Source: Planococcus shixiaomingii
GTDB taxonomy: Bacteria > Bacillota > Bacilli > Bacillales_A > Planococcaceae
Assembly: GCF_030413615.1 (NCBI RefSeq)
Contig: NZ_CP129236.1
Location: 728,001 to 792,000 of the forward strand
DNA length: 64,000 nt
Direction: 5' to 3'
The notes beneath the pieces are model-generated. The model made no database searches. It saw only the letters and a program-made list of their open reading frames with translations, and was not told where the DNA came from. The position numbers and the translations under genes were made by a program. Below, piece after piece: positions 7,028-23,860 of this stretch. Every line of letters starts with the position of its first letter. The stretch's first letter is position 1.

Positions 7028-7129
7028 TTGGCTCTGTTAGGGAAAGTGATATCGTTTTAAAAAGGGTTATACTTAGATTGAATGGTTGTGCAGAGAGATT
7101 CAAATTTAAGTAATAGGGAGTTTATAAAA

Positions 7130-7552
7130 ATGAGTATAGCAACTTATATTGGACTGAATTTTCCGGTGAAATTGCCAGAAGATTATATTGAGGATAAAAT
7201 CGAGATTGAATATGTTTTCTCGGAAGAAGAACATCGCCAGGCAGTTAAAGAAAAGCATTTTACTGTACCTCATATTTACGAGATTTCTGTAACAGAACAT
7301 GCTATCTGGGAAATGAATGAATACCAAAAGATTCGTTCACCCCATAGTTACGAAAAAGCCCAGAAAACGTTTCTTTCTGTGTGTCTCCTATTAAAAGAAT
7401 TGTTACCGGCAGGTGATTTCTGTGAAATTTATATTTGCTGGTTAGGTGATGAGAAGGAAGAACATGAGAAAGAACTGACAATAAATTTGAATGACCTGCA
7501 AATCGAAGCGCTCGATATACACGAAAATTGCTTCATTCGAATAGAAAACTAA
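7130..7552 (+). CDS. Hypothetical protein, 140 aa
   Basis: Not recognised. The ATG at 7130 has AGGGAG at 7115-7120; an in-frame ATG at 7082 has no such site. The product is acidic and probably cytoplasmic, with no signal peptide or membrane segment. Aromatic and charged residues are spread evenly, and a central stretch (SYEKAQKTFLSVCLLLKELL) looks helical. It follows the galactosidase terminator and has its own terminator, so it is a single-gene unit unrelated by position to sugar use. Confidence 0.7.
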   Translation: MSIATYIGLNFPVKLPEDYIEDKIEIEYVFSEEEHRQAVKEKHFTVPHIYEISVTEHAIWEMNEYQKIRSPHSYEKAQKTFLSVCLLLKELLPAGDFCEIYICWLGDEKEEHEKELTINLNDLQIEALDIHENCFIRIEN

Positions 7553-7627
7553 AGGTTTATCCTAAACGAGCAAACGCTTTTACATATGAAGCTAAATAAA
7601 ACAATGGACATTAGTTGAATAAAATCG

Positions 7628-7660
7628 GGGAACCTGAATAATTTAGGTTCTCCTATTTTT
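7628..7660 (+). terminator. Probable terminator
   Basis: GGAACCT (7629-7635) pairs with AGGTTCTCC (7645-7653) around a short A/T loop, followed by TATTTTT. It lies about 75 bases after the 140-aa hypothetical gene. Confidence 0.6.
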
Positions 7661-7730
7661 ATGTGATTGCAATTACATGAACAAGCAGCAATACCGAAAT
7701 TTATTGCTGCTTACTCTTTATAGGTTTATA

Positions 7731-7758
7731 ATATTCATATATACGAATATATGAATAT
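7731..7758. promoter_or_regulatory. CzrA/SmtB-type operator
   Basis: Perfect 10-bp inverted repeat ATATTCATAT (7731-7740) and ATATGAATAT (7749-7758), separated by 8 bases, 36 bases upstream of the ArsR-family gene. TTCAT/ATGAA half-sites are typical of zinc-responsive SmtB/CzrA operators. Binding by the adjacent regulator is inferred. Confidence 0.7.
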
Positions 7759-7794
7759 AAGAGAAAGCAAACATCAGGAAGCGAGGCGAAAAAG

Positions 7795-8124
7795 ATGGAA
7801 GAATTTAAAGAAAATGTAGCCGTCAAAAGTGGCAGCAATTTAGACGAAGAAACGCTATTTGTTGTATCCCAGACGTTCAAAGCATTGGGCGATCCCACCA
7901 GAATCCGGATCTTGAATTTGCTGTTTCAACGGGAATACTCGGTGAACGACATTGCGGAAACGTTGGGTATTCGCCAGTCGACGGTGTCCCAACAACTGCG
8001 CTTTCTAAAAAATTTACGGTTAGTGAAATATAGGAGAGAAGGCACAACTTTGTATTATTCCCATGATGACGATCATGTCATGAGTGTGCTGAAACTGACA
8101 ATCGATCATGCCAGCCATAATTGA
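7795..8124 (+). CDS. czrA: ArsR/SmtB-family zinc-sensing repressor, CzrA type
   Basis: 109-aa winged-helix repressor that should leave DNA when it binds Zn(II) or Co(II). The HTH region is clear ([14 protein letters not shown], then [18 protein letters not shown]). The C-terminal helix carries the alpha-5 metal site in exact CzrA spacing: D92, H94, H105 and H108 (DxH, 10 residues, HxxH). It lies directly upstream of a CDF exporter gene in the same direction and behind a palindromic operator, so autoregulation and zinc-induced export are expected. The metal assignment follows from the family; Co or Cd response cannot be excluded. Confidence 0.92.
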
Positions 8125-8147
8125 TTTTAAGGTAGCAGAAGGTTGAA

Positions 8148-8181
8148 CTCGCTCTAGGCGGACGCTTTCCGCTCCTTCCTC
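8148..8181. repeat. Fragment of a GC-rich Bacillales-type intergenic repeat
   Basis: The sequence CTCTAGGCGGACGCTTTCCG and its surroundings stand out as GC-rich against an A/T-rich spacer. The GCGCTTTCCGC-like core resembles part of R1. No second full copy of this variant is seen in the window. Confidence 0.4.
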
Positions 8182-8238
8182 TAAATTGTATAGATAAATT
8201 GTAAATATTATTGAAATGACAGTTAGGAGGTTTTGCAG

Positions 8239-9183
8239 GTGGGGCACGATCATGGACATGACCATGCGCATGGCGCGAATAAAAAAGCGTTGACCATCGG
8301 GTTTGTGATCATTACCGCTTATATGATCATTGAAGCAATTGGCGGATTTTTGACGAATAGCCTTGCGCTGTTGGCGGATGCGGGGCATATGCTGAGCGAC
8401 TCGATTTCAATGGGAGTGGCGATACTCGCTTTTACGTTAGGTGAACGAGTGGCCAACTACAGCAAGACGTACGGCTATAAACGATTTGAAATATTGGCTG
8501 CAGTTTTTAACGGAGTGACGCTGGTGGGGATTGCGCTTTACATTTTTTATGAAGCGTACCACCGGTTTGCCGATCCGCCGGAAGTGGCATCTACGGGCAT
8601 GCTGATTATCGCGGCAATCGGCTTATTTGTTAACGTTTTAGTGGCGTGGCTGTTGATGCGCAACGGCGATACGAAGGAAAACTTGAATGTGCGTGCAGCA
8701 TTCCTTCATGTACTGGGCGACCTGCTCGGTTCTGTTGGAGCAGTAACAGCTGCGTTGCTCATCATGTTCTTCGGCTGGAGCTGGGCGGATCCGGTGGCAA
8801 GTGTCATTGTAGCCGTTCTTGTTCTAGTCAGCGGATGGCGCGTTACGAGAGATGCGGTCCATATATTGATGGAAGGTACACCGAAAAACATCGATCTTGA
8901 TGACATCGTCAAAACGATGGAGGATGTTCCGGGAATCGTCAGCATCCACGATCTGCATGCCTGGTGCATCACGAGCGGTCAAAACGCGCTTTCGTGCCAC
9001 GCTGTAATCGATGGTGATCTATCGGTGAAGGACAGCCAAAAAATTCTGCGGGCGATCGAGCATGAATTGGAGCATAAAGGCATTGGCCATGTCACCATCC
9101 AAATGGAAAACACAGAACATCCGCATGGAAATGTCGTGCTGTGCCAAAATGACGGGGAAATGTCAGTTCATCATCATCATTAA
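8239..9183 (+). CDS. czcD: Cation diffusion facilitator zinc exporter, CzcD/ZitB type
   Basis: 314-aa inner-membrane proton/metal antiporter exporting Zn(II), and possibly Co or Cd. The GTG at 8239 is used because TAGGAGG (8224-8230) is 8 bases away; the TTG at 8233 is too close to it. Six transmembrane helices are visible. The two intramembrane zinc motifs are H50/D54 (HMLSD) and H157/D161 (HVLGD). The N-terminus is His-rich (MGHDHGHDHAHG) and the protein ends in HHHH. The soluble C-terminal domain (IHDLHAWCITSG) is normal for CDFs. It forms a two-gene zinc module with the CzrA-type repressor. Confidence 0.95.
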   Translation: MGHDHGHDHAHGANKKALTIGFVIITAYMIIEAIGGFLTNSLALLADAGHMLSDSISMGVAILAFTLGERVANYSKTYGYKRFEILAAVFNGVTLVGIALYIFYEAYHRFADPPEVASTGMLIIAAIGLFVNVLVAWLLMRNGDTKENLNVRAAFLHVLGDLLGSVGAVTAALLIMFFGWSWADPVASVIVAVLVLVSGWRVTRDAVHILMEGTPKNIDLDDIVKTMEDVPGIVSIHDLHAWCITSGQNALSCHAVIDGDLSVKDSQKILRAIEHELEHKGIGHVTIQMENTEHPHGNVVLCQNDGEMSVHHHH

Positions 9184-9207
9184 AATCGCTTTTCAAGGAG
9201 GTAAAAT

Positions 9208-10089
9208 ATGAACGATATTTCACCGGAAGAAGCGAACTTAAAGATGAGACAATGGCCGAAAGCTGCCATCGCAGCGGGTTATCGCCATACTGTTGCGCTC
9301 CAAACGGATGGTATGGTGGTAGCTGTAGGTGATAATAAATACGGCCAATGCGATGTGAGCGGCTGGTGCGACATGGTAGCTGTAGTAGCAGGGAGCGCGC
9401 ATATCGGCAGTTCTCACACCGTCGGACTCCAAAAGGACGGCACCGTGGCAGCAGTCGGTTGGAATAAATACGGCCAATGTGATGTGGATGATTGGCAGGG
9501 TATCGTAGCTATAGCGGCGGGCTGGCGCCGGACCATCGGAATAAAAAGGGATGGCACACTGGTGGCTGTTGGCCAAAACAATGAAGGTCAATGCGATGTA
9601 AGCGCGTGGCGCGATATTGTGGCGGCAGCTGCCGGTGACTGGCATACCATTGGGCTTCAATCGAACGGTTTAGTGGTAAGTGCGGGAAACAATCGGTATG
9701 GCCAGTGCAATGTATGCGATTGGCGCGACATCACAGCGGTATCAGCGGGATACTTGCATACCATTGGCTTGAAAAGAGATGGCACAGTTGTGGCCGTAGG
9801 TTTGAATAAAGACGGCCAATGCGAAGTAAACAGTTGGAGCAATATCGTAGCGGTATCAGCTGGGAGCAATCATACAATCGGGCTAAAATCGGATGGCACC
9901 GTATTGGCTGTAGGCCGAAATAATGATGGCCAATGCGATGTGAGTGAGTGGCGTGATATCGTGGCGATTTCAGCAGGCAGCGCTCATACTATCGGACTTA
10001 AAAAGGACGGCACGGCAGTGGCAGCAGGCCGAAACGAGGAAGGGCAGTGCAATGTCAGCGGTTGGACCGGCATCGGATTATCTATATAG
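9208..10089 (+). CDS. RCC1-repeat beta-propeller protein
   Basis: 293 aa made almost entirely of about seven repeats of about 39 residues, each with the pattern HTIGLxxDGTVxAVGxNxxGQCDVxxWxxIVAVSAG. This is the bacterial RCC1-like repeat and should form a closed seven-bladed propeller. Repeat 2 has a four-residue insertion (GSAHIGSSHT). There is no signal peptide, so it is probably cytoplasmic. The start has AAGGAGG in front. No enzyme motif is visible; binding of a protein or ligand is the likely role, partner unknown. It starts 24 bases after the zinc exporter gene and may be co-transcribed with it. Confidence 0.85.
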   Translation: MNDISPEEANLKMRQWPKAAIAAGYRHTVALQTDGMVVAVGDNKYGQCDVSGWCDMVAVVAGSAHIGSSHTVGLQKDGTVAAVGWNKYGQCDVDDWQGIVAIAAGWRRTIGIKRDGTLVAVGQNNEGQCDVSAWRDIVAAAAGDWHTIGLQSNGLVVSAGNNRYGQCNVCDWRDITAVSAGYLHTIGLKRDGTVVAVGLNKDGQCEVNSWSNIVAVSAGSNHTIGLKSDGTVLAVGRNNDGQCDVSEWRDIVAISAGSAHTIGLKKDGTAVAAGRNEEGQCNVSGWTGIGLSI

Positions 10090-10267
10090 AAGCGAAAAGA
10101 TTGAACGGGTCAATTCCGTACAATCTTTTTTATTTTGTGAGTAACAGTTTTTAAGCAGGAAAAATATTCTTAAGTATAGAAGTTGTGGCTATGTATTTTA
10201 TTTTGAGTAAATAACAAGAGTAAGATTAATTCCTTCAACTACGTCAAAGAAAGGAAAGGGAGGGCGA

Positions 10268-10924
10268 ATGGAGCTAATCGCAAGAATCCTTTATTTCACT
10301 GCGGTTTTATTGTTGCTTGTAGGCTGTGCTGGCAATACGAATTAAGACCCCGTACAGGATTCATCAGATGACAGTACAGTAAATGAACAAGCAGAAGAAG
10401 ATACTACGGAAACAGTTGAAACGACATCAACAAGAGAGGGAGAGGAAGCGGATATGGATAAGGAGAATGAAGTCTCTTCAGAAGAAACCGTTACTACGAA
10501 CTCGGACAGCACTACTTCAAGCGATTCAAAAAGTGTAGATGCTCTATCCGAGTATTCAAGTGAACAAATCGAATACGCCCGAGTTTGGCTGCAGCTTGGA
10601 GCGAACCAGGACATCGACGGATTATACGTCGAGCACATCCCAGCAGGCACACCGCTCAATCCCGATGATGACACGAGTGACACCTATCCGGAAGACGTCA
10701 TCCAGTTGGCTGGTTCCCGTTTAGTCGATGGGTCTGTAACATATAGCGGAAACGGAGACGGCACCATCAATCTCTACAACGTTCCGCTGCGCTGGGACGG
10801 CGAGTATCCAGCTGGCGAAGAATTCTATAGTGAGATCATCGACAATACGGAACTCGTAGCGATTGACGTTGGCAATGATGAAGAAGTGATACGACTAATC
10901 AAATTGCTGCAGGTTGAATCTTAA
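10268..10924 (+). pseudogene. Lipoprotein gene interrupted by a nonsense codon
   Basis: From the ATG at 10268 (GGAGGG in front) the frame encodes a lipoprotein signal with lipobox LLVGC at C20, then stops at TAA 10343-10345 after residue 25. The same frame then stays open to 10924. The remainder is an acidic Ser/Thr/Glu-rich linker followed by a conserved-looking domain (YARVWLQLGANQDIDGLYVE, then HIPAGTPLNPDDDTSDTYPE) that I recognise from Firmicutes lipoproteins of unknown function. An internal ATG at 10454 (GAGAGGAAG in front) could give a 156-aa product, but without lipidation. A single base change or a sequencing error would explain it. Confidence 0.75.
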
Positions 10925-10952
10925 GCTACATCGTGTAAATTGCCACCAATTA

Positions 10953-10993
10953 AAAATCCCCTCAAGCAGTAACTTTCTGCTTGAGGGGATTTT
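10953..10993. terminator. Bidirectional terminator
   Basis: AAAATCCCCTCAAGCAG (10953-10969) pairs with CTGCTTGAGGGGATTTT (10977-10993). It sits between the lipoprotein gene (+) and the convergent SDR gene (-) and has A/T tracts on both sides. Confidence 0.88.
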
Positions 10994-11052
10994 GTTGTTT
11001 CAATGAATCAGGTTAATCCATTGCCTCTATATGTATAGAGCTTTTTATCCGA

Positions 11053-11769
11053 TTACGGATTAGTTGACCACAGTCCAGCGGATTTCAAGAGAACACGCGG
11101 GTGCAGTTTCAGCTGGGCAACCATCATTTCAGCCAAGTCTTCCGGCTGCATAACTTTATCCGGATTGCCGTCCGTCAAGTTTTCCGAAAACGCCAAATCA
11201 GTAGCAACCGTGCTTGGTGTTAAGGCGCTGACACGGATATTGTGTTTTCTGACTTCCAGCATCAACGATTCCGTAAGTCCCATTACGCCGAATTTCGAAG
11301 CGCTGTAGGCGCTAGTTACCGGTGCACCTTTTTGCCCGGCCGTTGACGAAATATTGATGATGTCGCCAGACTCGCGTTCGATCATCTGTGGAAGTACAGC
11401 ACGGGTTACATAATAAACACCCATCAGATTCGTATCAATAATGCCTTTCCATTGGTCAGGCGCCAGCTCAAGGAACTTGCCAAATTTGCCGATGCCGGCA
11501 TTGTTGATCAAAATATCAATCGACCCCAGCTCGTCTATTATATGTTCGACTGCTGCATTGACCGCTTCCATGTCAGCGACGTCAGCCACAGCAAATACTG
11601 TTTTCACTCCGTATTGCTCCAGTTCCGCTGCCACTTTCTCTAAGTTGGCTGCAGTGCGTCCGACAAGCCCCACGTTTATGCCTTCTGCTGCAAAAGCGAT
11701 GGCGGTCGCCCGGCCGATGCCTTTCCCAGCTCCTGTAATTAACGCATTTTTTCCTGTTAAGTTTTGCAT
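11053..11769 (-). CDS. Short-chain dehydrogenase/reductase (FabG-like)
   Basis: 238-aa NAD(P)-dependent oxidoreductase. The ATG at 11769 ([13 protein letters not shown]) has AAAGGAG in front; an upstream in-frame ATG would add 23 non-family residues. The nucleotide-binding motif GAGKGIGRA, the NNAG motif and the catalytic S..YxxxK set (ISSTAG, YSASK) are all intact. It resembles Bacillus 3-ketoacyl-ACP-reductase-like SDRs, but the substrate cannot be told. It converges on the broken lipoprotein gene. Confidence 0.88.
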
Positions 11770-11899
11770 ATGAACAGCTCCTTTATAATCAATCAATTCC
11801 ATCCCACAGTGTAACAAAGTGTGCCGGTAAAAATCCAAGTGAAGAACTCGGAAGATAGAAAAAGACAGCAGAAAGAGTTCTGCTGTCAGTGATCATACA

Positions 11900-11962
11900 G
11901 GAAGCGCAACGGATGATAATGAAGTTATTAGACTGATTAAATTGCTAAAGGGTGAAGTGTAA
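11900..11962 (+). pseudogene. 3' relic of a second copy of the lipoprotein gene
   Basis: In the plus frame the last 20 codons read GSATDDNEVIRLIKLLKGEV, then stop. They match the C-terminus of the lipoprotein at 10268-10924 (GNDEEVIRLIKLLQVES). A terminator follows at a similar distance in both. Nothing upstream resembles the rest of the gene, so a tandem copy has lost all but its 3' end. Confidence 0.7.
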
Positions 11963-11993
11963 GCAGCTGTAGTGTCGAAAATCGACTCCAATC

Positions 11994-12039
11994 AAAAAAT
12001 CCTTTCAAACAGAAAGATTCTGTTTGAAAGGGATTTTTT
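11994..12039. terminator. Bidirectional terminator
   Basis: AAAAAATCCTTTCAAACAGA pairs with TCTGTTTGAAAGGGATTTTTT around a short loop. It serves the lipoprotein relic (+) and the small gene ending at 12066 (-). Confidence 0.85.
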
Positions 12040-12562: not shown

Positions 12563-13075
12563 CTATTCTATATCCCCTATAAACCAAATTTCTCCTTCGT
12601 AGTAGTATTCAGCTTCTTCATCAGAAATAATTTCCTTAAACCCAAATAGTTGAACTTCACTCGCCACCGTTAATTCCCATTCACTTATAAGGTTTCTATT
12701 TTCAGGCAGTGGAATCCATTTATAATCATTATTATTTCGAATAAAGAAATCCTTAAAGTGGGAATCCCCTTTAAAGACGATAATTTGAGAATTCCATATA
12801 TCTGGGGTGTTGATTGAAACAACCACCCGGTAGGTTTTGGAGTCTAGGGGCTTAAAGCTTTGTAAGTGTGAACCTTGGTTCAATAATGTTTGCATGCAAA
12901 GCCTTCTTACAGTTTTGGGTGTTTTTTTCGAATCTATAAAACTTTGGGCAACCGGCAAATGCAGATGCCAAAAACCATTATAAAATTCTGTAGGAAATAC
13001 CTTTGTCTCTTCTTCGATTGCTTTGATCATTTGCTGTGTTTTACGTTTAATGCCGCGTATTTTCTTCTCTCGCAT
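12563..13075 (-). CDS. Hypothetical protein, DUF3916-like, 170 aa
   Basis: Basic N-terminus (MREKKIRGIKRKTQQMIKAI) followed by FYNGFWHLHLPVAQSFI and a cysteine/threonine segment (TVRRLCMQTLL). This order reminds me of the DUF3916 family of Bacillus proteins, whose function is unknown; I could not check it. A good AAAGGAG precedes the start. There is no signal peptide or membrane helix. The gene is transcribed alone from the minus strand. Confidence 0.7.
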   Translation of the reverse strand: MREKKIRGIKRKTQQMIKAIEEETKVFPTEFYNGFWHLHLPVAQSFIDSKKTPKTVRRLCMQTLLNQGSHLQSFKPLDSKTYRVVVSINTPDIWNSQIIVFKGDSHFKDFFIRNNNDYKWIPLPENRNLISEWELTVASEVQLFGFKEIISDEEAEYYYEGEIWFIGDIE

Positions 13076-13119
13076 ACTTATACTCCTTTATCTGAAATTC
13101 AAGATAGATAGAACCAAGA

Positions 13120-13155
13120 GAAAAAGATTGGACTAAGTTCTGTCCAATCTTTTTC
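13120..13155 (-). terminator. Terminator of the PH-domain gene
   Basis: GAAAAAGATTGGAC (13120-13133) pairs perfectly with GTCCAATCTTTTTC (13142-13155). Read on the minus strand it ends in a T run, downstream of the gene ending at 13222. Confidence 0.85.
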
Positions 13156-13221
13156 CTGATACCGTGATTTCATAATAACTATAAACAAGTGCTCAGCTAT
13201 GTAAAACTCTGTCTTTTGAAT

Positions 13222-13587
13222 TTAGAGAATTGCTTCCGCAATCAATTTATCAAGTTTGCGAATGTCGACCTTTTTGTTTAAATTCAGTTTGAATTTACCG
13301 GCTTTTGTCCAAAGTTCCAATTCGGTATTCAAATCGAATGTTCCGCCATTTTCAGAAGAGTACATGATAATCGATTTGAAAGGAATGGAGTAAACTTCGA
13401 CTTTCTTTCCGGTTAATCCCTGTTTGTCGGAGATGATGATGCGTTTGTTGGTCACTACCGCTGTATCACGTACCGTTTTATATGCAATATGCGCTTCTTC
13501 ACCGGTAATAAGTAATTCATTAACCGATTCTGGAACATCGATTTCCTGCATGAATGTCCATGCCATCATTGTAGTTAAATCTGCCAT
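13222..13587 (-). CDS. Bacterial PH-domain protein (YvbH/YdjM-like), 121 aa
   Basis: Small cytoplasmic protein. The sequence LITGEEAHIAYKTVRDTAVV, then TNKRIIISDKQGLTGKKVEV followed by YSIPFKSI, matches the bacterial pleckstrin-homology fold (bPH), in which the TNKR(I/L) strand and the Y.IP turn are diagnostic. The role is unknown; such proteins are single-domain with unidentified ligands. AGGAGG precedes the ATG at 13587. Confidence 0.8.
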   Translation of the reverse strand: MADLTTMMAWTFMQEIDVPESVNELLITGEEAHIAYKTVRDTAVVTNKRIIISDKQGLTGKKVEVYSIPFKSIIMYSSENGGTFDLNTELELWTKAGKFKLNLNKKVDIRKLDKLIAEAIL

Positions 13588-13904
13588 GTAAATTCCTCCT
13601 TTGGTTTCTGCATCTAGTATGGCATATATTGGGAGTAAGTGGAAGAATAGGTTTACGGAACTGGATTAGTCAGAGCTTTGATTAAATAAACATATTTTTT
13701 TTGACTTTCTTACAAATTCATCCTTAAGAATCTTTTGTATTATTTTTTCCAATAGAAGACAATTAATAGGAAAATAATGCTAATATTAAGACATTAGTAA
13801 TTCGTTAAAATTGGTAACAACTTTCTAAAAAACTATAAGCGCTGAATCTTAATATATTTAATAAAAATCATAAATTTTGCCACATCCAGAGAGGCTGAAT
13901 ATAC
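13588..13904. other. A/T-rich spacer before the defence island
   Basis: 317 bases with no supported gene. Composition becomes strongly A/T-rich here and stays so to about 23.4 kb, so this is the left border of the island. I saw no att-like repeat or tRNA end. Confidence 0.5.
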
Positions 13905-15512
13905 ATGGGCATGACCGTACTAAAAACCTGGGACTTTAATAGATCCACGTTGGAAAGTATCAAAAACGATACTTACTTTGACTATCCTGTGGTTTATTTT
14001 CTGAACAACAATACCACGGTATATATTGGGGAAACTGTAGCCTTTAAAAATCGAATGAAGTCTCACTTGAATAATATTGAGAGAAAGAAATTAGAAAAAA
14101 TGACTCTCATCATCCATGAAAAATTTCACCGTTCTGCTACATACAATATTGAAACGAAACTAATCAATTATTTCTTAGGTGATGATCGCTACAAGCTGCA
14201 GAATAAGAGTCAGACTGCGCAAAGCGTAACGCACAACTACCATAACAAGGAATTTTACGACAAAGAGATATTCAATGATATATGGAAAGAACTCTTGAAA
14301 AGGAAGCTGGTCAATAACCCTGCTCATGTAATTGAAAACAGGGACATATTTAAACTTTCTCCTTTCAAAGAGCTGACAATGACACAACTCGAGCTTAAAA
14401 CAAAAATTTTGGAGGTTTGTGAAGATCACATCGACGCTGATGAAACGTTTGTGTTTATGGTTAAAGGCGAAGCCGGTGTAGGGAAGAGTGTGGTCCTAAG
14501 TTCCGTGTTCAATAGCATCCAGGAACGAGCAGCTGATAAAACTTCTAATCTTTATCAAACAAAGAATTATTTGCTCGTTAATCATACAGAGATGTTGAAA
14601 ACGTATAAAAACATCGCGGCCAATGTGAAGTTTCTCAAAAAGAATAACTTCGACAAGCCCACAAGTTTCATTAACAAGCAAAAAAAAGCTACAGAAAAAG
14701 CGGACATTGTCTTGGTCGACGAAGCGCATTTATTGCTGAGCAGAACTGATGCCTTCAATGGATTCAATGAAGACAATCAATTAGAAGAAATCATTAAGCA
14801 CAGCAAAGTCGTCATCGTTGTTTACGATGAAAAACAGGTCTTAAAACTGAAAAGCTATTGGGACGAGGAGCGGCTGAAAAATATAGTGCCGGATCATCAA
14901 ACTGAAGAGCCCTATATTTTAAAAGAACAATTCCGCATGAATGCTGGAGACGATGTGATTGACTGGATCGACAATTTTGTAGAGAAACGAATTCTAAAGT
15001 TACCAAGAGATGAAAAATATGATTTTAAAATTTTCGACTCTGCCAAGGAAATGCATACTGCCATAGTTGAAAAGAATAAAGAACACGGACTTTCCAGAGT
15101 GGTTTCGACATTCGACTATAAACATAAGAAAGATGGCGAGCAGCATTACATCAGAGAAGACAGCTTGGAAATTCCATGGAACTCAACAGATACCAAAAAT
15201 ACATGGGCAGAGAATCACGAGACAATCAAAGAAGCGGGATCCATCTATACAATTCAAGGCTTTGATCTAAATTATGTGGGTGTGATATTGGGGCCATCTA
15301 TAACTTATGATGAGCAAAATGGTTGCTTGAAGATCATTGCTGAAAAATATAGCGACACCGAAGCTTTCAGAGGAAAAGAAGGAATTGAAGATGTTGAAAA
15401 AGCGAAAGAACAAATTATATTGAATTCCATCAATGTGTTGATGAAGAGGGGGATAAAAGGGCTTTATATTTATGCTAGTGATGAGAAGTTGAAGGAGCGG
15501 CTTTTCAAATAA
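13905..15512 (+). CDS. GIY-YIG nuclease fused to DUF2075 helicase
   Basis: 535 aa. Residues about 25-120 resemble a GIY-YIG nuclease: YPVVYFLNNN and VYIGET, then R in FKNRMKSH, a conserved E in YNIETKLINYFLGD and N in YKLQNKSQ. From about residue 160 follows a superfamily I-like NTPase of the DUF2075 type with Walker A GEAGVGKSV, Walker B IVLVDEAHLL, motif LKEQFRMN and TIQGFDLNYVGVILG near the end. Such fusions are found in anti-phage and restriction-rich islands and are expected to process nucleic acid. It is a single-gene unit at the left edge of the island. Target and nuclease activity are unproven. Confidence 0.88.
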   Translation: MGMTVLKTWDFNRSTLESIKNDTYFDYPVVYFLNNNTTVYIGETVAFKNRMKSHLNNIERKKLEKMTLIIHEKFHRSATYNIETKLINYFLGDDRYKLQNKSQTAQSVTHNYHNKEFYDKEIFNDIWKELLKRKLVNNPAHVIENRDIFKLSPFKELTMTQLELKTKILEVCEDHIDADETFVFMVKGEAGVGKSVVLSSVFNSIQERAADKTSNLYQTKNYLLVNHTEMLKTYKNIAANVKFLKKNNFDKPTSFINKQKKATEKADIVLVDEAHLLLSRTDAFNGFNEDNQLEEIIKHSKVVIVVYDEKQVLKLKSYWDEERLKNIVPDHQTEEPYILKEQFRMNAGDDVIDWIDNFVEKRILKLPRDEKYDFKIFDSAKEMHTAIVEKNKEHGLSRVVSTFDYKHKKDGEQHYIREDSLEIPWNSTDTKNTWAENHETIKEAGSIYTIQGFDLNYVGVILGPSITYDEQNGCLKIIAEKYSDTEAFRGKEGIEDVEKAKEQIILNSINVLMKRGIKGLYIYASDEKLKERLFK

Positions 15513-15579
15513 AAAGCGATATATCTTAATGGTTTTTTCCGAATAACAGCTCATTCTTGCTTACTTTCTCTAAGTAAAA

Positions 15580-15616
15580 AAGAACATGTCTCATGTGGAG
15601 ATGGTCCTTATTTTAT
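15580..15616 (+). terminator. Possible weak terminator
   Basis: An imperfect hairpin (GAACATGTCTC against GAGATGGTCC) followed by TTATTTTATTT lies about 70 bases after the GIY-YIG/DUF2075 stop. The stem has mismatches. Confidence 0.35.
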
Positions 15617-15718
15617 TTAAATTAACTAACGAATAGTCAATAAGCTATTTTCTTATCATTCGACTTTAAATGGTAAATCACATAATTATAAATCACGTAA
15701 TTGAAAGGAATGAATTTA

Positions 15719-18280
15719 TTGGAATTACAAAATGAAATTTGGAATTGGACTAATCGATTGCCTAATTGGCATAGCGATTTACTTAGAAGATTATACGAAA
15801 AGGGAAAATTAAACGAAGTTGATCAATCTGAAGTAATAGACAATATCTTAGAAAGCGTTGGTTTAGCGAATAGAAAAGTTTCAATGTCGAAATTAATTAA
15901 AGAGCAAATACCTAATAAAAGAGCTAATAGTCAAGTCAAAATTAAATCCTTAAGTAATCTAGAAAATATATCTGCAATAGATAGACGGAGTGTTATGGAT
16001 TTTAATACAGAGGGGTTAACAATAATTTACGGAGATAACTCTGCGGGGAAATCGAGTTATGCAAGGGTATTGAAACAAGCATGCCGAGCAGCTGATAATA
16101 ATTCGAAGATTCATCCCAATATTTACGAACCACAAGGAAAAGTTGGTACAGTCCAAATAAATATTATTGCAGAAGATGGAGTAAGTAAGACGATTTATCG
16201 GGAAGTAAACACTTCACCGGAAAAACTGACTTCTCATTTTAGTATTTTCGATAGTGAATGTGCAAAAATATATACAGAAGAAGAAAATGATGTCGTATTT
16301 ATACCTACTGAATTACAGATATTCAATCTACTTGCAATCGAACAAAATAGTTTAAGAAAAATAATTACTGAAGAAAAAGAAGCGATGTTACAGACTACTC
16401 CAGACATATCTCATATTAATCAAGAAACAGCTGTAAGAAGGTTTCTTGATTCAATTAGTCACAAAACATTTCATTCAGACGTGGATGAAGTATGCAGATT
16501 CACTTTAAATGAACAAAAGCGTTTAACAGAAATTGAAGAAGATATTAGAGTGCTTTCTCACTCAAATCCAGAAAAGCATTTGAAAGAATTAGAAAGAAAT
16601 ATAAGTGATGTCTCTATATTAAAAGAAAGCCTAATGGATATTAGTAGTAAACTAACCAAAGAAAATATGGAACAGTTTATATCACACCATGACAAATTTT
16701 TAAACGCAAAAGAAACGTTAGAAATCGAAAAAGACTTTGCTTTTAATAAACAACCCTTAGCGGGAGTTGGATCAAATCCATGGATGAACTTATGGAATGC
16801 AGCAAAAGAATTTAATAATATTGCATATCCGGAAAAAAAATTCCCGAATACTACTGAGAATGCTGAATGTTTATTATGTCAGCAGGTGTTAAAAGAAGAA
16901 TCAAAAAACAGATTAAATAATTTTGAAGAATTCATCCAAAGTACTTTTACTCAGGAAAAAAATCGATGGGACAAGCTTCGAAAAGAGTATATAACTACAA
17001 TTAAGTCATTACCATTTGAAGAAGTAGAAAACGCTTCAATTAGGAAATTTTTAAACCAAGAAGATTTTGATTTAGAAATTCTTATTGAGAAATTTATTCG
17101 CTCAGTATTTAAGGCGAAATCAGAACTTCTGAAAGCAGAAGAAAACAAAAAGGTAAACTTGCTAGAATTGGAAAAAAATCCACTAATTCAAATTAATAAT
17201 TGGATCAAACTTAATAGTCATGAACTAGAACGTCTTAGAAAATTATCAGCTTCTGATGGCAAAGAATTATTGCAGAAAGAAAGACAAGAATTATTAGCGA
17301 AACAAGAGGCCAATAAAAAAATAGAAGAAATCTATAAAATTGTTGATATCAGAAAAAATGAGGATAAGTACAAAAAGGCAATTGGGTTACTATATACTAC
17401 CAAGATTACAATGAAGTACAAGGAGTTATCAAACGCATATATTACTGATAATTTTAAAGAACAAATTAAGAAGGAATTAAAATCTCTTCGGTGCGATAAT
17501 GTTTTGTTCGACTTAAAAAGCAGAGGAGTAAAGGGGCAAACTAAAATTAAATTGTCAATAAATTCTAATATCAATCCGAAACTAAAAGAGATATTTAGTG
17601 AAGGTGAACAAAAAGCTTTATCCTTAGCATTTTTTCTGGCAGAAGTTTCGTCGTTAAATCATAATGGTGGAATAATTTTAGATGATCCTGTATCTTCTTT
17701 TGACCAAGGAAGAAGAGAATATGCTGCGAAGAGAATTATTGAAGAAGCCGAGAAGAGACAAGTAATTGTTTTTACACATGATATTGTGTTTTTACATACT
17801 TTGCAAAAGCTAGGCAAACTAAGAAAGACAAGTTTAAGTTGTAATGTTGTTCGAAGAGTCAATCAAACAGCTGGAGTGATCACAAAAGATTTTCCATGGG
17901 TTGCTCAACCTATTAATAAAAGAATTAAGTATTTGAGAAATGAGTTACAAACAATGAGTAAAAAAGAAGTTGAATTTGATCCTAATAAATATCACTTTGA
18001 AGTTAAGACTTGGTATTCTTTATTAAGAGAGGGGTGGGAGCGGTCTATTGAAGAGCTAATGTTTGGAGGAGTAATTGAGCGTTTTGATGCAAGTATAAAA
18101 ACTCTGCAATTAAAAAATGCTAAAATTACTGATGATTTAATTCAACAAGTTCAAGAAGGTATGACAATAGCGTCAAACATGGTTCATGATGAATCACCAG
18201 CCATAGGTAGATTAGTACCTAGTATTGAGGAAATGGAAGATGATTTATTGAAATTGGAAAGTTTTAAAAATAGTTTTTAA
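15719..18280 (+). CDS. Large zinc-hook AAA_13-type ATPase of a defence island
   Basis: SMC/Rad50-like ATPase of about 853 aa. The TTG at 15719 lies 9 bases after AAAGGA; the ATG at 15710 overlaps that site. An N-terminal domain (WNWTNRLPNWHSDLLRRLYE) is typical of AAA_13 proteins. Then come Walker A GDNSAGKSS (105-113), a long coiled coil with CxxC zinc hook C384/C387 (ECLLCQQ), a second coil, signature SEGEQKA (627-633), Walker B IILDDPVSSFD (D655, D656) and H-loop FTHD. The C-terminal region has R770-x3-E774 (LREGWER) and H823 (NMVHDES), an arrangement reminiscent of PrrC/RloC anticodon nucleases. It is probably a one-gene anti-phage protein; tRNA cleavage is a hypothesis. Confidence 0.85.
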   Translation: MELQNEIWNWTNRLPNWHSDLLRRLYEKGKLNEVDQSEVIDNILESVGLANRKVSMSKLIKEQIPNKRANSQVKIKSLSNLENISAIDRRSVMDFNTEGLTIIYGDNSAGKSSYARVLKQACRAADNNSKIHPNIYEPQGKVGTVQINIIAEDGVSKTIYREVNTSPEKLTSHFSIFDSECAKIYTEEENDVVFIPTELQIFNLLAIEQNSLRKIITEEKEAMLQTTPDISHINQETAVRRFLDSISHKTFHSDVDEVCRFTLNEQKRLTEIEEDIRVLSHSNPEKHLKELERNISDVSILKESLMDISSKLTKENMEQFISHHDKFLNAKETLEIEKDFAFNKQPLAGVGSNPWMNLWNAAKEFNNIAYPEKKFPNTTENAECLLCQQVLKEESKNRLNNFEEFIQSTFTQEKNRWDKLRKEYITTIKSLPFEEVENASIRKFLNQEDFDLEILIEKFIRSVFKAKSELLKAEENKKVNLLELEKNPLIQINNWIKLNSHELERLRKLSASDGKELLQKERQELLAKQEANKKIEEIYKIVDIRKNEDKYKKAIGLLYTTKITMKYKELSNAYITDNFKEQIKKELKSLRCDNVLFDLKSRGVKGQTKIKLSINSNINPKLKEIFSEGEQKALSLAFFLAEVSSLNHNGGIILDDPVSSFDQGRREYAAKRIIEEAEKRQVIVFTHDIVFLHTLQKLGKLRKTSLSCNVVRRVNQTAGVITKDFPWVAQPINKRIKYLRNELQTMSKKEVEFDPNKYHFEVKTWYSLLREGWERSIEELMFGGVIERFDASIKTLQLKNAKITDDLIQQVQEGMTIASNMVHDESPAIGRLVPSIEEMEDDLLKLESFKNSF

Positions 18281-18289
18281 AAATGTAAA

Positions 18290-18418
18290 TTGTCATTTCA
18301 AGTCGAACACCGTAAGAAATTCAACAATACCCCAAACGGAGTATTGTTGAATAAATCGCATCCCTATGTCCCACGCAATTCCATCTATTTAAGAAACCTG
18401 CATGAAGTATTCAAATAA
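18290..18418 (+). pseudogene. Possible gene remnant (C-terminal 42 codons)
   Basis: The frame reads SFQVEHRKKFNNTPNGVLLN and continues KSHPYVPRNSIYLRNLHEVFK before TAA at 18416. Composition is protein-like, but there is no ribosome binding site and no ATG or GTG start. It begins 10 bases after the AAA_13 gene and may be the tail of a lost gene. A perfect 12-bp inverted repeat (18319-18330 and 18341-18352) lies inside it. Family not recognised. Confidence 0.35.
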
Positions 18419-18832
18419 TCCAGCAACGGAGAGGATTCTTCATGTATTTTTATGTCTTGGCGTAAATAGTGATAAATATATGGAATATAAGTAAAATATG
18501 GATATTTATGTAATTAAAAACTATCCTTTGTCTTGGACATTTTTTCACTATCAATTTTATTTATTGTCCCTGAATTACGGCATTTCCAAGATGCAGATCT
18601 TTTCTTGCACTCCCTCCCAATCCCGGATAAAATTCAAAGTTCGTGGCCCTAAGAAAGAAACAAGTCTAATAAATTCTGATAATTTGATTGCATGCGAAAG
18701 AAACCCCGACCTCGTGAACACAGGATTCACGAGGATGAAGTTTTGCTGTTTATGAAAAAAGTGGAATTGACATAAATTGTGCCGCTCCCAAGGAAGCGAT
18801 ATTAAAATTAATAAACTAGTATAATTCTAGCA
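18419..18832. other. A/T-rich spacer with one hairpin
   Basis: About 410 bases without a supported gene. A 9-bp hairpin (CCTCGTGAA at 18710, TTCACGAGG at 18726) is the only clear structure; it has no T run. An open frame at 18498-18755 has no ribosome binding site or recognisable sequence. Confidence 0.4.
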
Positions 18833-19582
18833 CTATACCAGTTCTAAACAATTTTCTAATAATGAGTTTTCAAGGCAGCTAAACTCGTCATCCCAGAAGT
18901 CTAATTCAATTAAAATATTTTTACACCAATAAAAGATATCATCATTTATAATAACTGTGGCTACTGTAGCTGCATAGTCTTTTTGAGGCAAACCTTGTCT
19001 GAGAAGAGACTTTAGCCCATTAATCACCATATTTTTACGGCGAGTACTTGTACTTATACCCTGATAGTATTCACTTAGATTATCGGAAATTTTTTCAAGA
19101 GACTCATGGATATTATTCCCAATCATAAACCTGGATTGTACTAACCTTTCTGTATCATTTAGATATAATACGTCAATGGTATTTCGGCCTGTTTGATCTT
19201 TTGATTTCAAACGATAATTCTTCATAGCAATATGCACTTTGGGATCGTCTATGCATGGATTAATAATATATTCTATATTAGGATCATGCTCTCCTTTATT
19301 AAGGTTACATCTTTTACAAGAGGGTAGAAGATTATCCCAATCTACCACTAAATCAGGATAATATTTTTTGGGAAGAAAGTGTTCTACTTCCATATACTTA
19401 CTTTCCTCTTTGATGTTACATTCACAGTAACAGCACTTTTCTTTTGATAATTCTAACAATGCCAATTTAATATATGTTTGACTCCAAACATTTGAACCAT
19501 TAAGTTTGTATTCACTGACTAAATCAGCAACTGTTTGATCAGTTAACTGAGTAGGTTTTGGGTTTCTAATTAACTTAATCAT
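18833..19582 (-). CDS. ptuB: Septu-like HNH endonuclease (PtuB family)
   Basis: 249 aa. It has the PtuB-type HNH layout: KCCYCE (first CxxC), then YMEVEHFLPKKYYPDLVVDW with the catalytic-type His, then DNLLPSCKRCNLNKG (second CxxC). The N-terminal MIKLIRNPKPTQLTDQT segment is also usual for this group. In Septu the HNH protein acts with the PtuA ATPase to restrict phage. Its ATG overlaps the ATPase stop by one base (TAATG), a strong sign of coupled translation. PtuB-like HNH proteins also occur with retrons; no reverse transcriptase is present here. Confidence 0.85.
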   Translation of the reverse strand: MIKLIRNPKPTQLTDQTVADLVSEYKLNGSNVWSQTYIKLALLELSKEKCCYCECNIKEESKYMEVEHFLPKKYYPDLVVDWDNLLPSCKRCNLNKGEHDPNIEYIINPCIDDPKVHIAMKNYRLKSKDQTGRNTIDVLYLNDTERLVQSRFMIGNNIHESLEKISDNLSEYYQGISTSTRRKNMVINGLKSLLRQGLPQKDYAATVATVIINDDIFYWCKNILIELDFWDDEFSCLENSLLENCLELV

Positions 19583-20769
19583 TAAATGCCACCACCAATA
19601 GCAGCTAATTGGATTTCCAAGATTTTTTTTAGAGGATTCCTTGGATGCAACATTAAATCCAATACTTTATAAGCGTTTATTGCACTGTCAACGTCTTCTT
19701 TATCTAATGCCTCTTCAAAATCCTTTAGTATATTAATATAAGTATCTGAACGTGTCTCTTCTAATCCCATAACGTCTTTTAAGATTTCTTCTACTGTCCA
19801 TCCTTGATAACCAAATTCGCTACTCGGTAAATCACGTACATATACCATATTTTCTTCATTTATTCCCAAGGCAATTAATTCGTTTGGTTCTGCAGTCTGA
19901 ATCATGTGAGGACTGTGAGTAGTAAGAATAATTTGTGCTTTAGGTACTACTTCTTTAAAAACTTGGATTAATTTAGACTGCCATTGAGGATGAAGATGTA
20001 AATCTGCTTCATCTATTAAAATTAATCCATCGAAATTGGTTACATTGAGACCTGGATTTTTAAATCTATATTCAATCTGTTTAATTAGGCCAAGTAACAA
20101 AATCAATACTGATTTATACCCTGACGACAAATACTCAAAATATATATCTTTACCAAAAGCTGATAACAAGATTTCATGAGTATCTGGTATAACAGCTTTA
20201 AATGAAACGTTAGGGTCAATTATTCCAAAGCACTTTTTAGCTAATTCTAAATTTTGGACTTGGTACTCTTTTAATAATCCTGGATGGGCTGACCACATAA
20301 ATCGACTAAGGAACCAACTTTTAATATTATTAGGTGATGTTCCTAGAGAAGCAGTTTCATTAGCTACTACATGGATTTCTTGTACTGGATCTTTTGAAAT
20401 AGCCGAAACTTCTATATAGTCTAATTGCCGATTAGACTTAAATACCAATACATTTAATAAATGATCTTGGAACGGATGAAGTGGGTATTCGCCTTGTTCA
20501 GCTGGATGAAAAAAGTTTCTAACAAATGTCCTTGATTCGTTTGACTCTTGATCCGATAACGAAATTGTCCAACTACCAGAATCATATTTAGAATTCCTTC
20601 TCAATGTTTTAGAACCGTAACGTGCAAAAGAGTGACTTATACATTCTAAAATTGTTGTTTTACCGACACCGTTTGGACCACATATTAAGTTCATGCCAGG
20701 ATTGAAGGAGATTTCTAGCTGATCAATTCCTCCAATTGCATTAATGGAGATTTTTTCGATTTTTGTCAT
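19582..20769 (-). CDS. ptuA: Septu-like AAA/ABC ATPase (PtuA family)
   Basis: 395 aa; the ATG at 20769 (MTKIEKISINAIGGIDQLEI) follows AAGGTGG at 7 bases, whereas a frame from 20811 has no such site. Walker A is GPNGVGKTT, the signature is LSSGYKSVL, Walker B is LILIDEADLHLHPQWQ and the H-loop THSPHM; all appear intact. This OLD/RecF-like domain is the ATPase partner of the HNH nuclease immediately downstream. The C-terminal about 90 residues (EVLDLMLHPRNPLKKILE region) are helical. Together the two genes match the type I Septu layout. Anti-phage function is inferred from the family. Confidence 0.85.
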   Translation of the reverse strand: MTKIEKISINAIGGIDQLEISFNPGMNLICGPNGVGKTTILECISHSFARYGSKTLRRNSKYDSGSWTISLSDQESNESRTFVRNFFHPAEQGEYPLHPFQDHLLNVLVFKSNRQLDYIEVSAISKDPVQEIHVVANETASLGTSPNNIKSWFLSRFMWSAHPGLLKEYQVQNLELAKKCFGIIDPNVSFKAVIPDTHEILLSAFGKDIYFEYLSSGYKSVLILLLGLIKQIEYRFKNPGLNVTNFDGLILIDEADLHLHPQWQSKLIQVFKEVVPKAQIILTTHSPHMIQTAEPNELIALGINEENMVYVRDLPSSEFGYQGWTVEEILKDVMGLEETRSDTYINILKDFEEALDKEDVDSAINAYKVLDLMLHPRNPLKKILEIQLAAIGGGI

Positions 20770-21379
20770 AACAGCCACCTTCGCCTTGCATTTTTTACTA
20801 AATAATACCATAAATGAAAGATGTTCGTAAACTTATAAAAAAGAAACATACCGGTATAAGGTGCTTCCCAGAGGAAGAAACAATTCTAAACGATTTTGAC
20901 AATACACGACCATTTATACCTTATACGTAGCCACACCGGATACTTCAACATTTTGGGAAAGGTTTTTTCTTTTTATTCATCGGAACAAATTGTAGGGAAT
21001 TTTCTCGCTCGCTGGAAAGCTTAATTATTAAAGTCAAAACATTATAAGCTTCTCCTATTACATTGAAGCTCGATGAGCTGAAATTAATAGCGGCTCAAAT
21101 CAAAAATTAAAAGGAAAGATGGAGGGCGTGCTACTTCAGAATGACGGGGCCACTTGTTAAGCCTCTAGGGATTGGAGTGATTGCCGCTTCTGAATTATAA
21201 AATTGAAATAAAAATGAAATGTAATAAAAGAAATAGATTGTTAGTAACGGTCTCTTAAGTTATCTTTAATTTAAGAGATATTTAAAATTTAATCTAAAAA
21301 GATTAATATTCCCAACTATTCCTGTTTTAAATAAAAATTATAATTAAATGAAAAATCGGTTAAAGGAGAAAAATCATAA
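20770..21379. other. Spacer between divergent defence modules
   Basis: 610 bases separating Septu (-) from the ATPase/nuclease-like pair (+). It contains repeat A (20879-21004). The last 150 bases are extremely A/T-rich and should hold the promoter of the plus-strand pair; AAAGGAG stands just before the ATG at 21380. No gene is supported. Confidence 0.5.
20879..21004 (+). repeat. Dispersed repeat A (pair of repeat B at 33288)
   Basis: Both copies begin AAC(A/G)(A/G)TTCTAAACGA.TTTGACA and continue with shared blocks (TTGGGAAAGG / TTGGAAAGGA; AAATTGTAGGGAATT / AAATTGTGTGGAATT) over about 125 bases. A shorter match to the central part (CGACAATACACTACAATTGA) is at 23441-23460. No coding capacity or transposon end is evident. 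Confidence 0.55.
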
Positions 21380-22726
21380 ATGGAATTATTAATTGAAAAC
21401 ATTGGATTGGTTAATAGAGCTCAAATAAAGTTAGATGGCTTAACAGTCATTGCTGGAGAAAATGATACAGGCAAAAGTACAGTTGGAAAAGCTATTTTTT
21501 CTATAATAAAAGGGATGAACAGCCACCATAGGGATTTTAAAGAAGATAAGTTTTCTCAAATTGATGATGTAATTGACAATATTTATTTTAAAGTTCGGGA
21601 TATTTCTAATAAGTCCAATCATAGAGAATCAACTGAATTTTCGAGAACTCTTTATCCGCCTGAAATACGTAGAGTTTTACTCAAATATTTCAACGTAGAA
21701 GATTATGAAATGATTTCAAACTATTTAGTTTCTTATAAAGAAAGTATTCATTTAGAGTTAGACAAGTTAGAAGCTTCAGAGGAGTCGAGGACGGAAGTTC
21801 ATTTATTACAAGATAAATTAGATTCTTTATTACAGAACGCACAAGATCGAGATAATTATATTTACAGATCTATAAGATTAGCTCTCAAATCGGAATTTGG
21901 ATCTGATTTGTCAAATAAGTTTACTGAAGAACATTCAAAAATTGTCTATTACGAAAATGGTGAAAGAATTTTTGATGGAAATGTAGTAGATGGCATTATA
22001 AAAAGCGCTTCATTTTCTTTAACACCACTAGAAATAGAAGATGTGACCTATATTGAATCACCTTTAATCTTGCAAATGTATAAAATGGTAGCAAGTTCAA
22101 ATATTTTTATAAATGCTTCAAAATTAAATAGAATAAAAAGAAATAATAAAGGACCAATTCCTTTCCATATGAAAGATTTAATTTCAAAAATGTCTAACTC
22201 TACATATTATGAAGTTGAATTCGAGGACTCAAATTTAAAAATAATAGAAGAAATTAGCTCCATAATTGGTGGAGAAACTATATTTGATAAGGACAGTGAC
22301 GAATTTATTTTTGAAAAAGGTATAAACGGAAAACAGTATTCGTTTAATACTTCTAATGTGGCTTCCGGAATAAAATCTTTTAGTATGATTCAAATGTTGT
22401 TAAAATCCCAATCAATTAATCCTAGAAGTATATTAATTTTAGATGAGCCTGAGATTCATTTACACCCCAAATGGCAAATTAGATACTGTGAAATATTGGT
22501 TAAGTTAGCAGAGAGGGGCATTAAGGTTTTAGTAAACTCACATAGCCCTTATATTATACAGGCGTTAAAAGTACTGAGTGAAAAATACGAAATTGAAGAA
22601 AAAACTAATTTCTATTTAGCTGAAAAAAATGAAAATGGAAGCTCGTTAATTTCAAATGTGAACGAAGATCTGAATTCTGTATTTAAAAAATTGTCTGATC
22701 CATTACAAAGCTTAGTATGGGAGTAA
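21380..22726 (+). CDS. AAA ATPase of an unassigned two-gene defence module
   Basis: 448-aa OLD/RecF-like ATPase (AAA_15/AAA_21 type), cytoplasmic. Walker A GENDTGKST begins at residue 26. A helical insertion of about 250 residues follows, and then SGIKSFSMIQMLL, which stands in the place of the ABC signature. Walker B is LILDEPEIHLHPKWQ (D355, E356) and the H-loop NSHSPYII. No Toprim, HNH or other nuclease domain follows the ATPase, so activity should come from the partner gene 6 bases downstream. Gene order and size do not match Gabija, Septu or retron ATPases that I know. Confidence 0.85.
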   Translation: MELLIENIGLVNRAQIKLDGLTVIAGENDTGKSTVGKAIFSIIKGMNSHHRDFKEDKFSQIDDVIDNIYFKVRDISNKSNHRESTEFSRTLYPPEIRRVLLKYFNVEDYEMISNYLVSYKESIHLELDKLEASEESRTEVHLLQDKLDSLLQNAQDRDNYIYRSIRLALKSEFGSDLSNKFTEEHSKIVYYENGERIFDGNVVDGIIKSASFSLTPLEIEDVTYIESPLILQMYKMVASSNIFINASKLNRIKRNNKGPIPFHMKDLISKMSNSTYYEVEFEDSNLKIIEEISSIIGGETIFDKDSDEFIFEKGINGKQYSFNTSNVASGIKSFSMIQMLLKSQSINPRSILILDEPEIHLHPKWQIRYCEILVKLAERGIKVLVNSHSPYIIQALKVLSEKYEIEEKTNFYLAEKNENGSSLISNVNEDLNSVFKKLSDPLQSLVWE

Positions 22727-22732
22727 ATGGTA

Positions 22733-23401
22733 ATGTTAACTAATTTCTTAAATAAAGGCATCCAACTAAATATTTTTGAGTTAAAGGCACTAAAAAACCT
22801 AGAAGGTAGTTGCGCTAATAAAGCGAATTTGGAAGTAATTGATTATGATAAAGTAAAAGAAAAAATATACTCATTAATGAATGGTCCAGGAAATAGATTG
22901 AAATTTAACCAACCAAAATCATGTGATGCTTTAAAAATATTGCCGGCTCAATTTAGATTAGATTTTATTGAAATAAAGGGAATAAAAGATTTTTGTGACA
23001 ATTTACAAGAAAAAGCGAAAATCGAGGCAGATGAAAAAATTGAAGCCCAAGTCCAAAAATTTAATTTGGAAAATAAAATCGAACAAAGTTTAGACTTATT
23101 TAAATTATTATTGCAAATTACCCAATTCGAAGTAAATAATACTGTAAAAGAAGAGATTTTGAATAATGCATTAAAAAAGTATATTGTGGTAATTGATGAG
23201 GAAATTGAAGAAGATTATGCTAAGCAAATTGCTGTCAGTTTGGATTTTTTAAGTACCGCTTCCAATTACAAAAATGAAGTAATAATTAAATTGCAAGAAT
23301 CTATTGATGGAATTGAAACTGTTAAAATTTCAAAACCAGTATTGATGAGCCATTCTAAAATTGATCAGTATTATGAAGGAATTGGTAGTGCTGTTTCATA
23401 A
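22733..23401 (+). CDS. Partner protein with PD-(D/E)XK-like motif
   Basis: 222 aa, family not recognised. The ATG at 22733 lies 9 bases after GGGAG; an ATG at 22727 is too close to it. Residues 62-82 contain K-S-C-D-A-L, then a short beta-like stretch, then FIEIKG: D65, E80 and K82 in the spacing D-x14-E-x-K. This fits motifs II and III of PD-(D/E)XK nucleases, and many such enzymes have the same hydrophobic FIE(I/L)K strand. The rest is helical (long Glu/Lys-rich stretches). With the ATPase it probably forms the effector of an anti-phage module. The nuclease assignment rests on this motif only. Confidence 0.7.
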   Translation: MLTNFLNKGIQLNIFELKALKNLEGSCANKANLEVIDYDKVKEKIYSLMNGPGNRLKFNQPKSCDALKILPAQFRLDFIEIKGIKDFCDNLQEKAKIEADEKIEAQVQKFNLENKIEQSLDLFKLLLQITQFEVNNTVKEEILNNALKKYIVVIDEEIEEDYAKQIAVSLDFLSTASNYKNEVIIKLQESIDGIETVKISKPVLMSHSKIDQYYEGIGSAVS

Positions 23402-23440
23402 AAATCACGTCTATGGTAAAGAAACGATTGTATAGAATTT

Positions 23441-23460
23441 CGACAATACACTACAATTGA
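23441..23460 (+). repeat. Partial match to dispersed repeats A and B
   Basis: CGACAATACACTACAATTGA matches the centre of repeat B (TGACAATACACTACAATTTT) at 33306-33325. It lies at the right edge of the A/T-rich island, just before duplicated flanking sequence begins. Confidence 0.4.
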
Positions 23461-23494
23461 TTGCAGTAACGAGAACCGTTTCCCTGTGTCAAAC

Positions 23495-23860
23495 CCAATT
23501 CAGTTTATTTACTTCAATTGCATCAAGAAAAAGCCGTATCCACTGACCTCAAAGGTTAACGGATACGGCTTTCCTGTGTTTATCTGTGAAATAACTAGTT
23601 ATAAAATCTGAAAGCCATTCATTAAAGTAACTGCTGTGCCAGCAACCGGTAGACATCCAACCGTTTTTCCAGGGAATGCGGGATGCTGCAGATCATGGCT
23701 TCTTCAAAACCGTATTCGATTTGCTCCCGCTGCAATTGATCTGCCACGTCTTTAGCGGAGCCGACTAAATGGATTTTGCGACTTGCCAGGATTTGCATGC
23801 GGTCCATTTCCGTCAATGCGGAATTTTGTGCTTCTTCGGGTGTCATGAGCGGCATGATGC
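23495..23860 (-). pseudogene. 3' relic of an LLM-class monooxygenase gene with its terminator
   Basis: The minus strand encodes the last 78 or so codons (IMPLMTPEEAQNSALTEMDR ... RLLAQQLL) of the flavin monooxygenase intact at 25477-26469, with only a few residue changes. The flanking terminator (23528-23573) is the same as the one at 25384-25426. Homology stops sharply near 23860, in the codons before IMPLM. The fragment lacks a start and the FMN-binding N-terminal half, so it is not functional. Confidence 0.85.

Follow-up and report, generated by a model that had tools for sequence, protein, structure and literature searches.

In a 64,000-nucleotide stretch of the Planococcus shixiaomingii genome (contig NZ_CP129236.1, positions 728,001 to 792,000 of the forward strand; hereafter the window), an OLD-like ABC ATPase gene (21380..22726, forward strand, 448 amino acids) is followed by a small gene for a PD-(D/E)XK-like protein (22733..23401, forward strand, 222 amino acids). 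The two genes are adjacent and co-directed, with the ATPase first and the small nuclease-like gene second, and the question they raise is whether they constitute a single antiviral system and, if so, whether that system is already known. The initial annotation regarded an OLD-like ATPase and a separate PD-(D/E)XK-like protein as one two-gene unit of unassigned, new architecture. Conservation, structural modelling and co-occurrence support the unit, but the claim of novelty fails, since WonAB and the published 'OLD-ABC ATPase + novel REase' operon share the architecture, PD-T4-4 is tabulated with domains of the same two kinds, and HEC-02A is the top PADLOC model of the ATPase. The best explanation, in which we have high confidence, is an abortive-infection system in which a dimeric sensor ATPase governs a nuclease effector; the ATPase is the proposed sensor or regulator subunit (WonA-like) and its partner the proposed effector (WonB-like). 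What we observe directly is the pair of genes, the motifs of the ATPase, the conservation of the partner's active-site residues and its predicted fold, the co-occurrence of both genes, and their carriage on viral contigs and plasmids.

The first gene encodes an OLD-type ABC ATPase with intact ATP motifs, and every element initially reported for it was found: Walker A (GENDTGKST, residues 26-34; 21455..21481, forward strand), Walker B with the stretch that follows it (DEPEIHLHP, residues 355-363; 22442..22468, forward strand) and the H-loop histidine, H388 (22541..22543, forward strand). Across 24 aligned homologues, G31, K32, S33 and T34 are invariant, as are D355, E356, P357, E358, H362, P363 and H388. 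The interval from the Walker B glutamate to the H-loop histidine is 32-33 residues at every locus where both were located; Walker A-to-B spacing is 153-218 residues in five loci and 284-338 in the others, the window's ATPase having 324. At homologous loci L070, L074, L080, L082 and L088 the Walker A-B interval is approximately 70-140 amino acids shorter than in the window's ATPase, and the same kind of partner is kept. The protein ends 60 residues past H388, and library scans detected no nuclease domain within it and no Toprim match in either protein of the pair. Its top PADLOC model is HEC-02A (7.8e-32); it also matches PD-T4-4_A models (7.1e-31 and 5.8e-25) and, more weakly, NsnB (1.3e-23), Old (4.4e-17), AriA (6.6e-17) and GajA (6.9e-15). 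Rad50 and SMC heads and PtuA are among its best structural neighbours.

Two ATG codons could begin the partner gene: one at 22727, directly after the ATPase stop, giving 224 amino acids, and one at 22733, six bases after it. A GGAG within the end of the ATPase gene (22720..22723, forward strand), which from its sequence is the probable ribosome-binding site, lies 9 bases from the ATG at 22733 and 3 bases from that at 22727, while the closest homologue of the partner begins at the position matching 22733. On account of both this spacing and the homologue's start, 22733 is the better choice, which agrees with the 222 amino acids and six-base gap first reported. The motif D-x14-E-x-K on FIEIK, comprising D65, E80 and K82, is likewise confirmed; in the 224-residue numbering these residues are D67, E82 and K84.

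In a single protein, such spacing of D, E and K could be due to chance; here it is not, because it is conserved across aligned partners. The predicted catalytic aspartate (codon 22925..22927, forward strand) is kept in 69 of 69 partners, and for the predicted E-x-K (codons 22970..22978, forward strand) the glutamate is kept in all 69 and the lysine in 67, with a D-to-E gap of 11-14 residues; the active site is retained even in partners only 11% identical to that of the window. This alignment consists of 72 partner open reading frames (ORFs), less L029, L030, L044, L063 and L069 (short or broken) and L079 (the same as L077), plus two plasmid rows and the window's own protein, and it marks D41, D67, E82, K84 and K117 (224-residue numbering) as the residues that matter. 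The structural model of the partner is not all-helical, the fold that the initial annotation had named as counting against its reading if D65, E80 and K82 lay far apart, but a confident alpha/beta structure in which D67 starts strand 68-72 and E82 and K84 lie on strand 77-84, placing the predicted motif on a beta hairpin. The top 22 VIA rows for this model include Cdn1, Can2, Cfr10I, EcoO109I, FokI, Bse634I, PspGI, XPF-ERCC1, Mus81-Eme1, Zip2-Spo16 and HamA; 20 of the 22 are what we take to be PD-(D/E)XK or XPF-like folds, and two rows are Upx and a SEAC/EGOC chain. As modelled, therefore, the partner has a PD-(D/E)xK fold with a conserved active site, and would presumably act as a nuclease.

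Other searches scarcely touched this protein. Foldseek returned no significant match in PDB or BFVD, the top PDB rows being mostly G-alpha subunits, and a sequence profile search of PDB gave two rows, the best a ribosomal protein (E 0.048). No Pfam or PADLOC model matched the window's partner, and three NCBIfam rows (best 0.0011) were all far under their cut-offs. Across the 69 partners, weak matches to nuclease families were confined, among the 25 of 46 families listed, to NERD (three), SduA_C (two) and Tox-REase-9 (one), the other weak families being mostly unrelated. As a single-sequence query the partner found only itself in 60 relatives, 398 genomes of the class, GTDB contigs, plasmids and phages, and its homologues were reached by searching with the ATPase and then reading the downstream ORF. 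Since the window's partner is named by no library scanned, annotation may miss such pairs.

The closest homologous pair is that of Lysinibacillus alkalisoli (ATPase 57% and partner 37% identical), with more distant pairs in Metasolibacillus; both genera belong, like the window's genome, to the Planococcaceae. From a GTDB scan with the ATPase we used the best 80 of 317 confirmed loci, a sample that leans to close relatives and spans Bacillota, Bacteroidota, Campylobacterota, gammaproteobacteria, Spirochaetales, Fusobacteriota and others. Downstream partner ORFs were first located by position, not by motif, and a hidden Markov model (HMM) was later built from those partners. Counted with this HMM and by inspection, the ATPase is adjoined by a partner or the remnant of one at 73 of the 80 loci, or 73 of the 76 that could be scored (L014, L027, L045 and L062 stop at a contig edge). 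Separate occurrence of the two genes, which the initial annotation had held to count against the pairing, is thus not what is seen. The 73 comprise 69 loci recognized by HMM, L056, L075 and L089 (adjacent matches outside the script count), and L049, which was counted by motif only, its score lying under the HMM cut-off; among them are shortened partners at L029, L044 and L063, and at L089 a fragment truncated where the contig stops. An intact ATPase stands without a whole partner at L030, where the partner has an internal deletion, and at L034 and L069, where it is absent. Partner loss at these three loci was considered as evidence for an effector role and dropped, the loci having been found via the ATPase and the pattern being partly one of construction. 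Flanks across homologous loci hold no third gene conserved with the pair, other neighbours being variable.

Within the window's own family the ATPase occurs in 6 of 261 genomes (E 1e-15), and a partner-profile search returned the same six and one more. In that extra genome a distant 174-residue partner homologue stands behind a different, 333-residue AAA ATPase (L098:1459-2962). In the family of L059, a Lachnospiraceae metagenome-assembled genome (MAG), the ATPase is found in 8 of 299 genomes (E 1e-60), that of L059 among them; the partner is present at six of the seven new loci, and at the other the ATPase itself is matched only in part. The pair is also mobile. IMG/VR contains 28 long ATPase matches among 67 loci, several of them near-identical copies, and a motif-bearing partner lies beside 24 of the 28; further homologues occur in one phage record, one Klebsiella plasmid and one Acinetobacter plasmid. 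On the Klebsiella plasmid (L090, NZ_CP103616.1:3382-5347), which is only 5.9 kb, the pair lies directly 3' of the replication gene and is annotated merely as an AAA family ATPase and a hypothetical protein. The two genes form one unit: they are together nearly always, and the pair is widespread.

How such a unit might work is suggested by WonAB of the Vibrio cholerae WASA-1 prophage, a two-gene operon that pairs an OLD-ABC ATPase (WonA, AWB73975.1) with a PD-(D/E)xK protein (WonB, AWB73976.1) (PMC12137116). According to that account, protection needs both genes, ATPase-motif variants and WonB K71A are inactive, and excess WonB halts growth and translation only with active WonA, genomic DNA remaining intact; its authors propose rRNA or tRNA as the target (PMC12137116). 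WonB is there predicted to dock on a surface formed by the C-terminal extensions of the WonA dimer (PMC12137116). We envisage that the window's ATPase, as an ABC-type dimer, would sense infection and would hold, stabilise or activate the small nuclease. On activation the nuclease would cleave a nucleic acid in the infected cell, and phage production would be stopped at the cost of that cell, that is, by abortive infection. By analogy with WonAB, whose activation shuts down translation and leaves genomic DNA unharmed, tRNA or rRNA is somewhat likelier than DNA as the substrate.

A system of the same kind whose nuclease cuts phage or host DNA, in the manner of restriction, would be compatible with a sensor ATPase governing an effector, and we regard it as a serious but less favoured possibility. 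Restriction enzymes that cut DNA, together with Can2/Cdn1, make up most of the partner's nearest structural neighbours, although fold neighbours do not settle the substrate, and WonB, with the same layout, is described as sparing genomic DNA and stopping translation (PMC12137116). It is unlikely that the genes are a toxin-antitoxin pair mainly maintaining mobile elements, with the ATPase neutralising a toxic nuclease. A two-gene unit on plasmids and viral contigs would suit that role, but toxicity of the WonAB nuclease is reported to depend on the presence of an active ATPase (PMC12137116), which speaks against a simple antitoxin, and strictly kept ATPase motifs suit a sensor better.

The genomic position of some copies raises a different possibility. 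From 460 flank ORFs we took 121 immediate neighbour proteins, among which matches to the 25 of 161 families listed include seven GlyQ, five AspRS-type, four NadA and three enolase. Insertion of the pair between glyQ and glyS is seen in Bisgaardia (L049:3827-10275), where a YhcG-type (DUF1016) nuclease gene is inserted at the same place, and in Leptotrichia (L071:4082-8945); it lies 3' of hisS-aspS in the Lachnospiraceae MAG (L059:1649-6867), and in Metasolibacillus (L084:5001-11213) one gene separates it from the start of hisS-aspS. Another homologous pair (L088:2856-5399) is in or beside one of these glyQ-glyS or hisS-aspS operons. At L026:1920-7685, three tandem OLD-like ATPases stand 5' of glyQ, each with its own small ORF behind; the first of these ORFs has no match to the partner profile, yet contains a D..ExK-like stretch, and nucleases may here have been exchanged. 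A link to tRNA synthetases as a general rule was rejected, since none of seven further loci from the family of L059 has GlyQ, GlyS, HisS or AspS, the only neighbours sought, within approximately 1.5 kb. The majority of the neighbour matches belong to a few clades, and their placement may be inherited. Poisson estimates for the link were set aside, since they depend on an assumed background rate and on clades counted by eye. ARAGORN predicted no tRNA genes in the window or in 15 loci. A shared, recurrent insertion hotspot is the simplest reading, and we think it rather improbable, more so than a toxin-antitoxin role, that the family recognises or cuts particular tRNAs (glycine, aspartate) and that its placement reflects a link beyond convenient insertion. 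A housekeeping or repair role, with an SMC/Rad50-like ATPase and a nuclease as in SbcCD, finds some encouragement in the Rad50/SMC heads among the ATPase's structural neighbours and in the copies within housekeeping operons, but is the least probable reading of all given a very patchy distribution (the 6 of 261 and 8 of 299 genomes above), strong divergence, and copies on viral contigs and plasmids.

The surroundings of the pair in the window are those of a defence locus. As initially described, it occupies an A/T-rich island beside Septu and other defence genes, which is confirmed by PADLOC matches and by the contrast in G+C: 28.3% in the pair itself and 32.1% across 13000-23600, compared with 45.0% over 1-12000 and 24001-64000 together. 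The neighbours are Septu PtuA (19582-20811; PADLOC 1.2e-154) and PtuB (18833-19582; 4.5e-93), an 859-residue AAA_13-type protein that is a candidate PDC-S06 (15701-18280; 1.4e-243), and a protein that joins a GIY-YIG domain to a Schlafen group 3 helicase domain (13905-15512), whose GIY-YIG end alone is matched by PDC-S14 models. With Septu, PDC-S06 and the GIY-YIG/Schlafen protein alongside, the pair is part of a defence island in this genome.

Among known systems, Menshen, a DUF262 protein with an OLD nuclease (PMC10952713), was considered for the NsnB match of the ATPase and an NsnC match of one homologous partner (7.6e-4). It was rejected because the five matches to NsnC in 161 genomes were all short and none lay at the pair, and because Menshen carries DUF262, which was absent from the nine window proteins scanned. 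The contrast first drawn with Gabija, Septu and systems with a Toprim partner holds. Septu has a related ABC ATPase, PtuA being among the best structural neighbours, but PtuB is an HNH nuclease whereas the window's partner is PD-(D/E)XK-like, with neither a PtuB nor an HNH match. PARIS, Gabija and OLD have the related ATPases AriA, GajA and Old. Their Toprim nuclease is either fused or separate. The window's ATPase, by contrast, stops 60 residues past H388, and the D..ExK motif of its partner is predicted to lie on a hairpin and is not Toprim-like; the description of those nucleases as Toprim comes in part from PMC10952713.

HEC-02 of PADLOC, presumably short for Hma-embedded candidate, supplies the best model of the window's ATPase (HEC-02A), and HEC-02B models each match at most six of the 69 partners (best 7.5e-6), but not the window's own. 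PD-T4-4, reportedly the work of Vassallo et al. in 2022, is a cousin that pairs a PD(D/E)XK component with an AAA ATPase, and PD-T4-4_A matches the window's ATPase; no PD-T4-4_B appears among 11 families listed for the 69 partners at E 0.01, the presence of that model in the library being unconfirmed. It has been tabulated with an AAA ATPase (PF13175) and a PD(D/E)XK domain (PMC10952713, Table 1) and located in an integrative element (PMC9519451). WonAB is described as similar to PD-T4-4, some such systems having a distinct nuclease, and as closely related to the 'OLD-ABC ATPase + novel REase' operon, which 0.96% of bacterial genomes carry and which is there traced to Krishnan et al. 2020 (PMC12137116); PMC12409358 gives the same account of this class.

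The window's pair is filed with WonAB because it has the same layout and motifs: an OLD-type ABC ATPase without a nuclease domain followed by a PD-(D/E)xK nuclease, Walker A, Walker B and H-loop in both ATPases, and a glutamate-to-histidine interval of 33 in WonA (E300, H333) and 32-33 here. They differ in the catalytic lysine, at 71 in WonB and 82 (222-residue numbering) in the window's partner, and in Walker A-to-B spacing, which from published numbers is 266 in WonA and 324 here, with relatives on either side of 266. Three ATPase queries against phages and two against plasmids matched no Vibrio records. Most likely, then, the pair is a WonAB-like, 'OLD-ABC + novel REase' member, placed there by layout and motifs. 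WonAB homologues are reported mainly from Gram-negative bacteria, and the pair adds Gram-positive members (Planococcaceae, Lachnospiraceae) to this layout, some of which the published operon list may already include; such diverse versions make the target of WonB-like nucleases testable.
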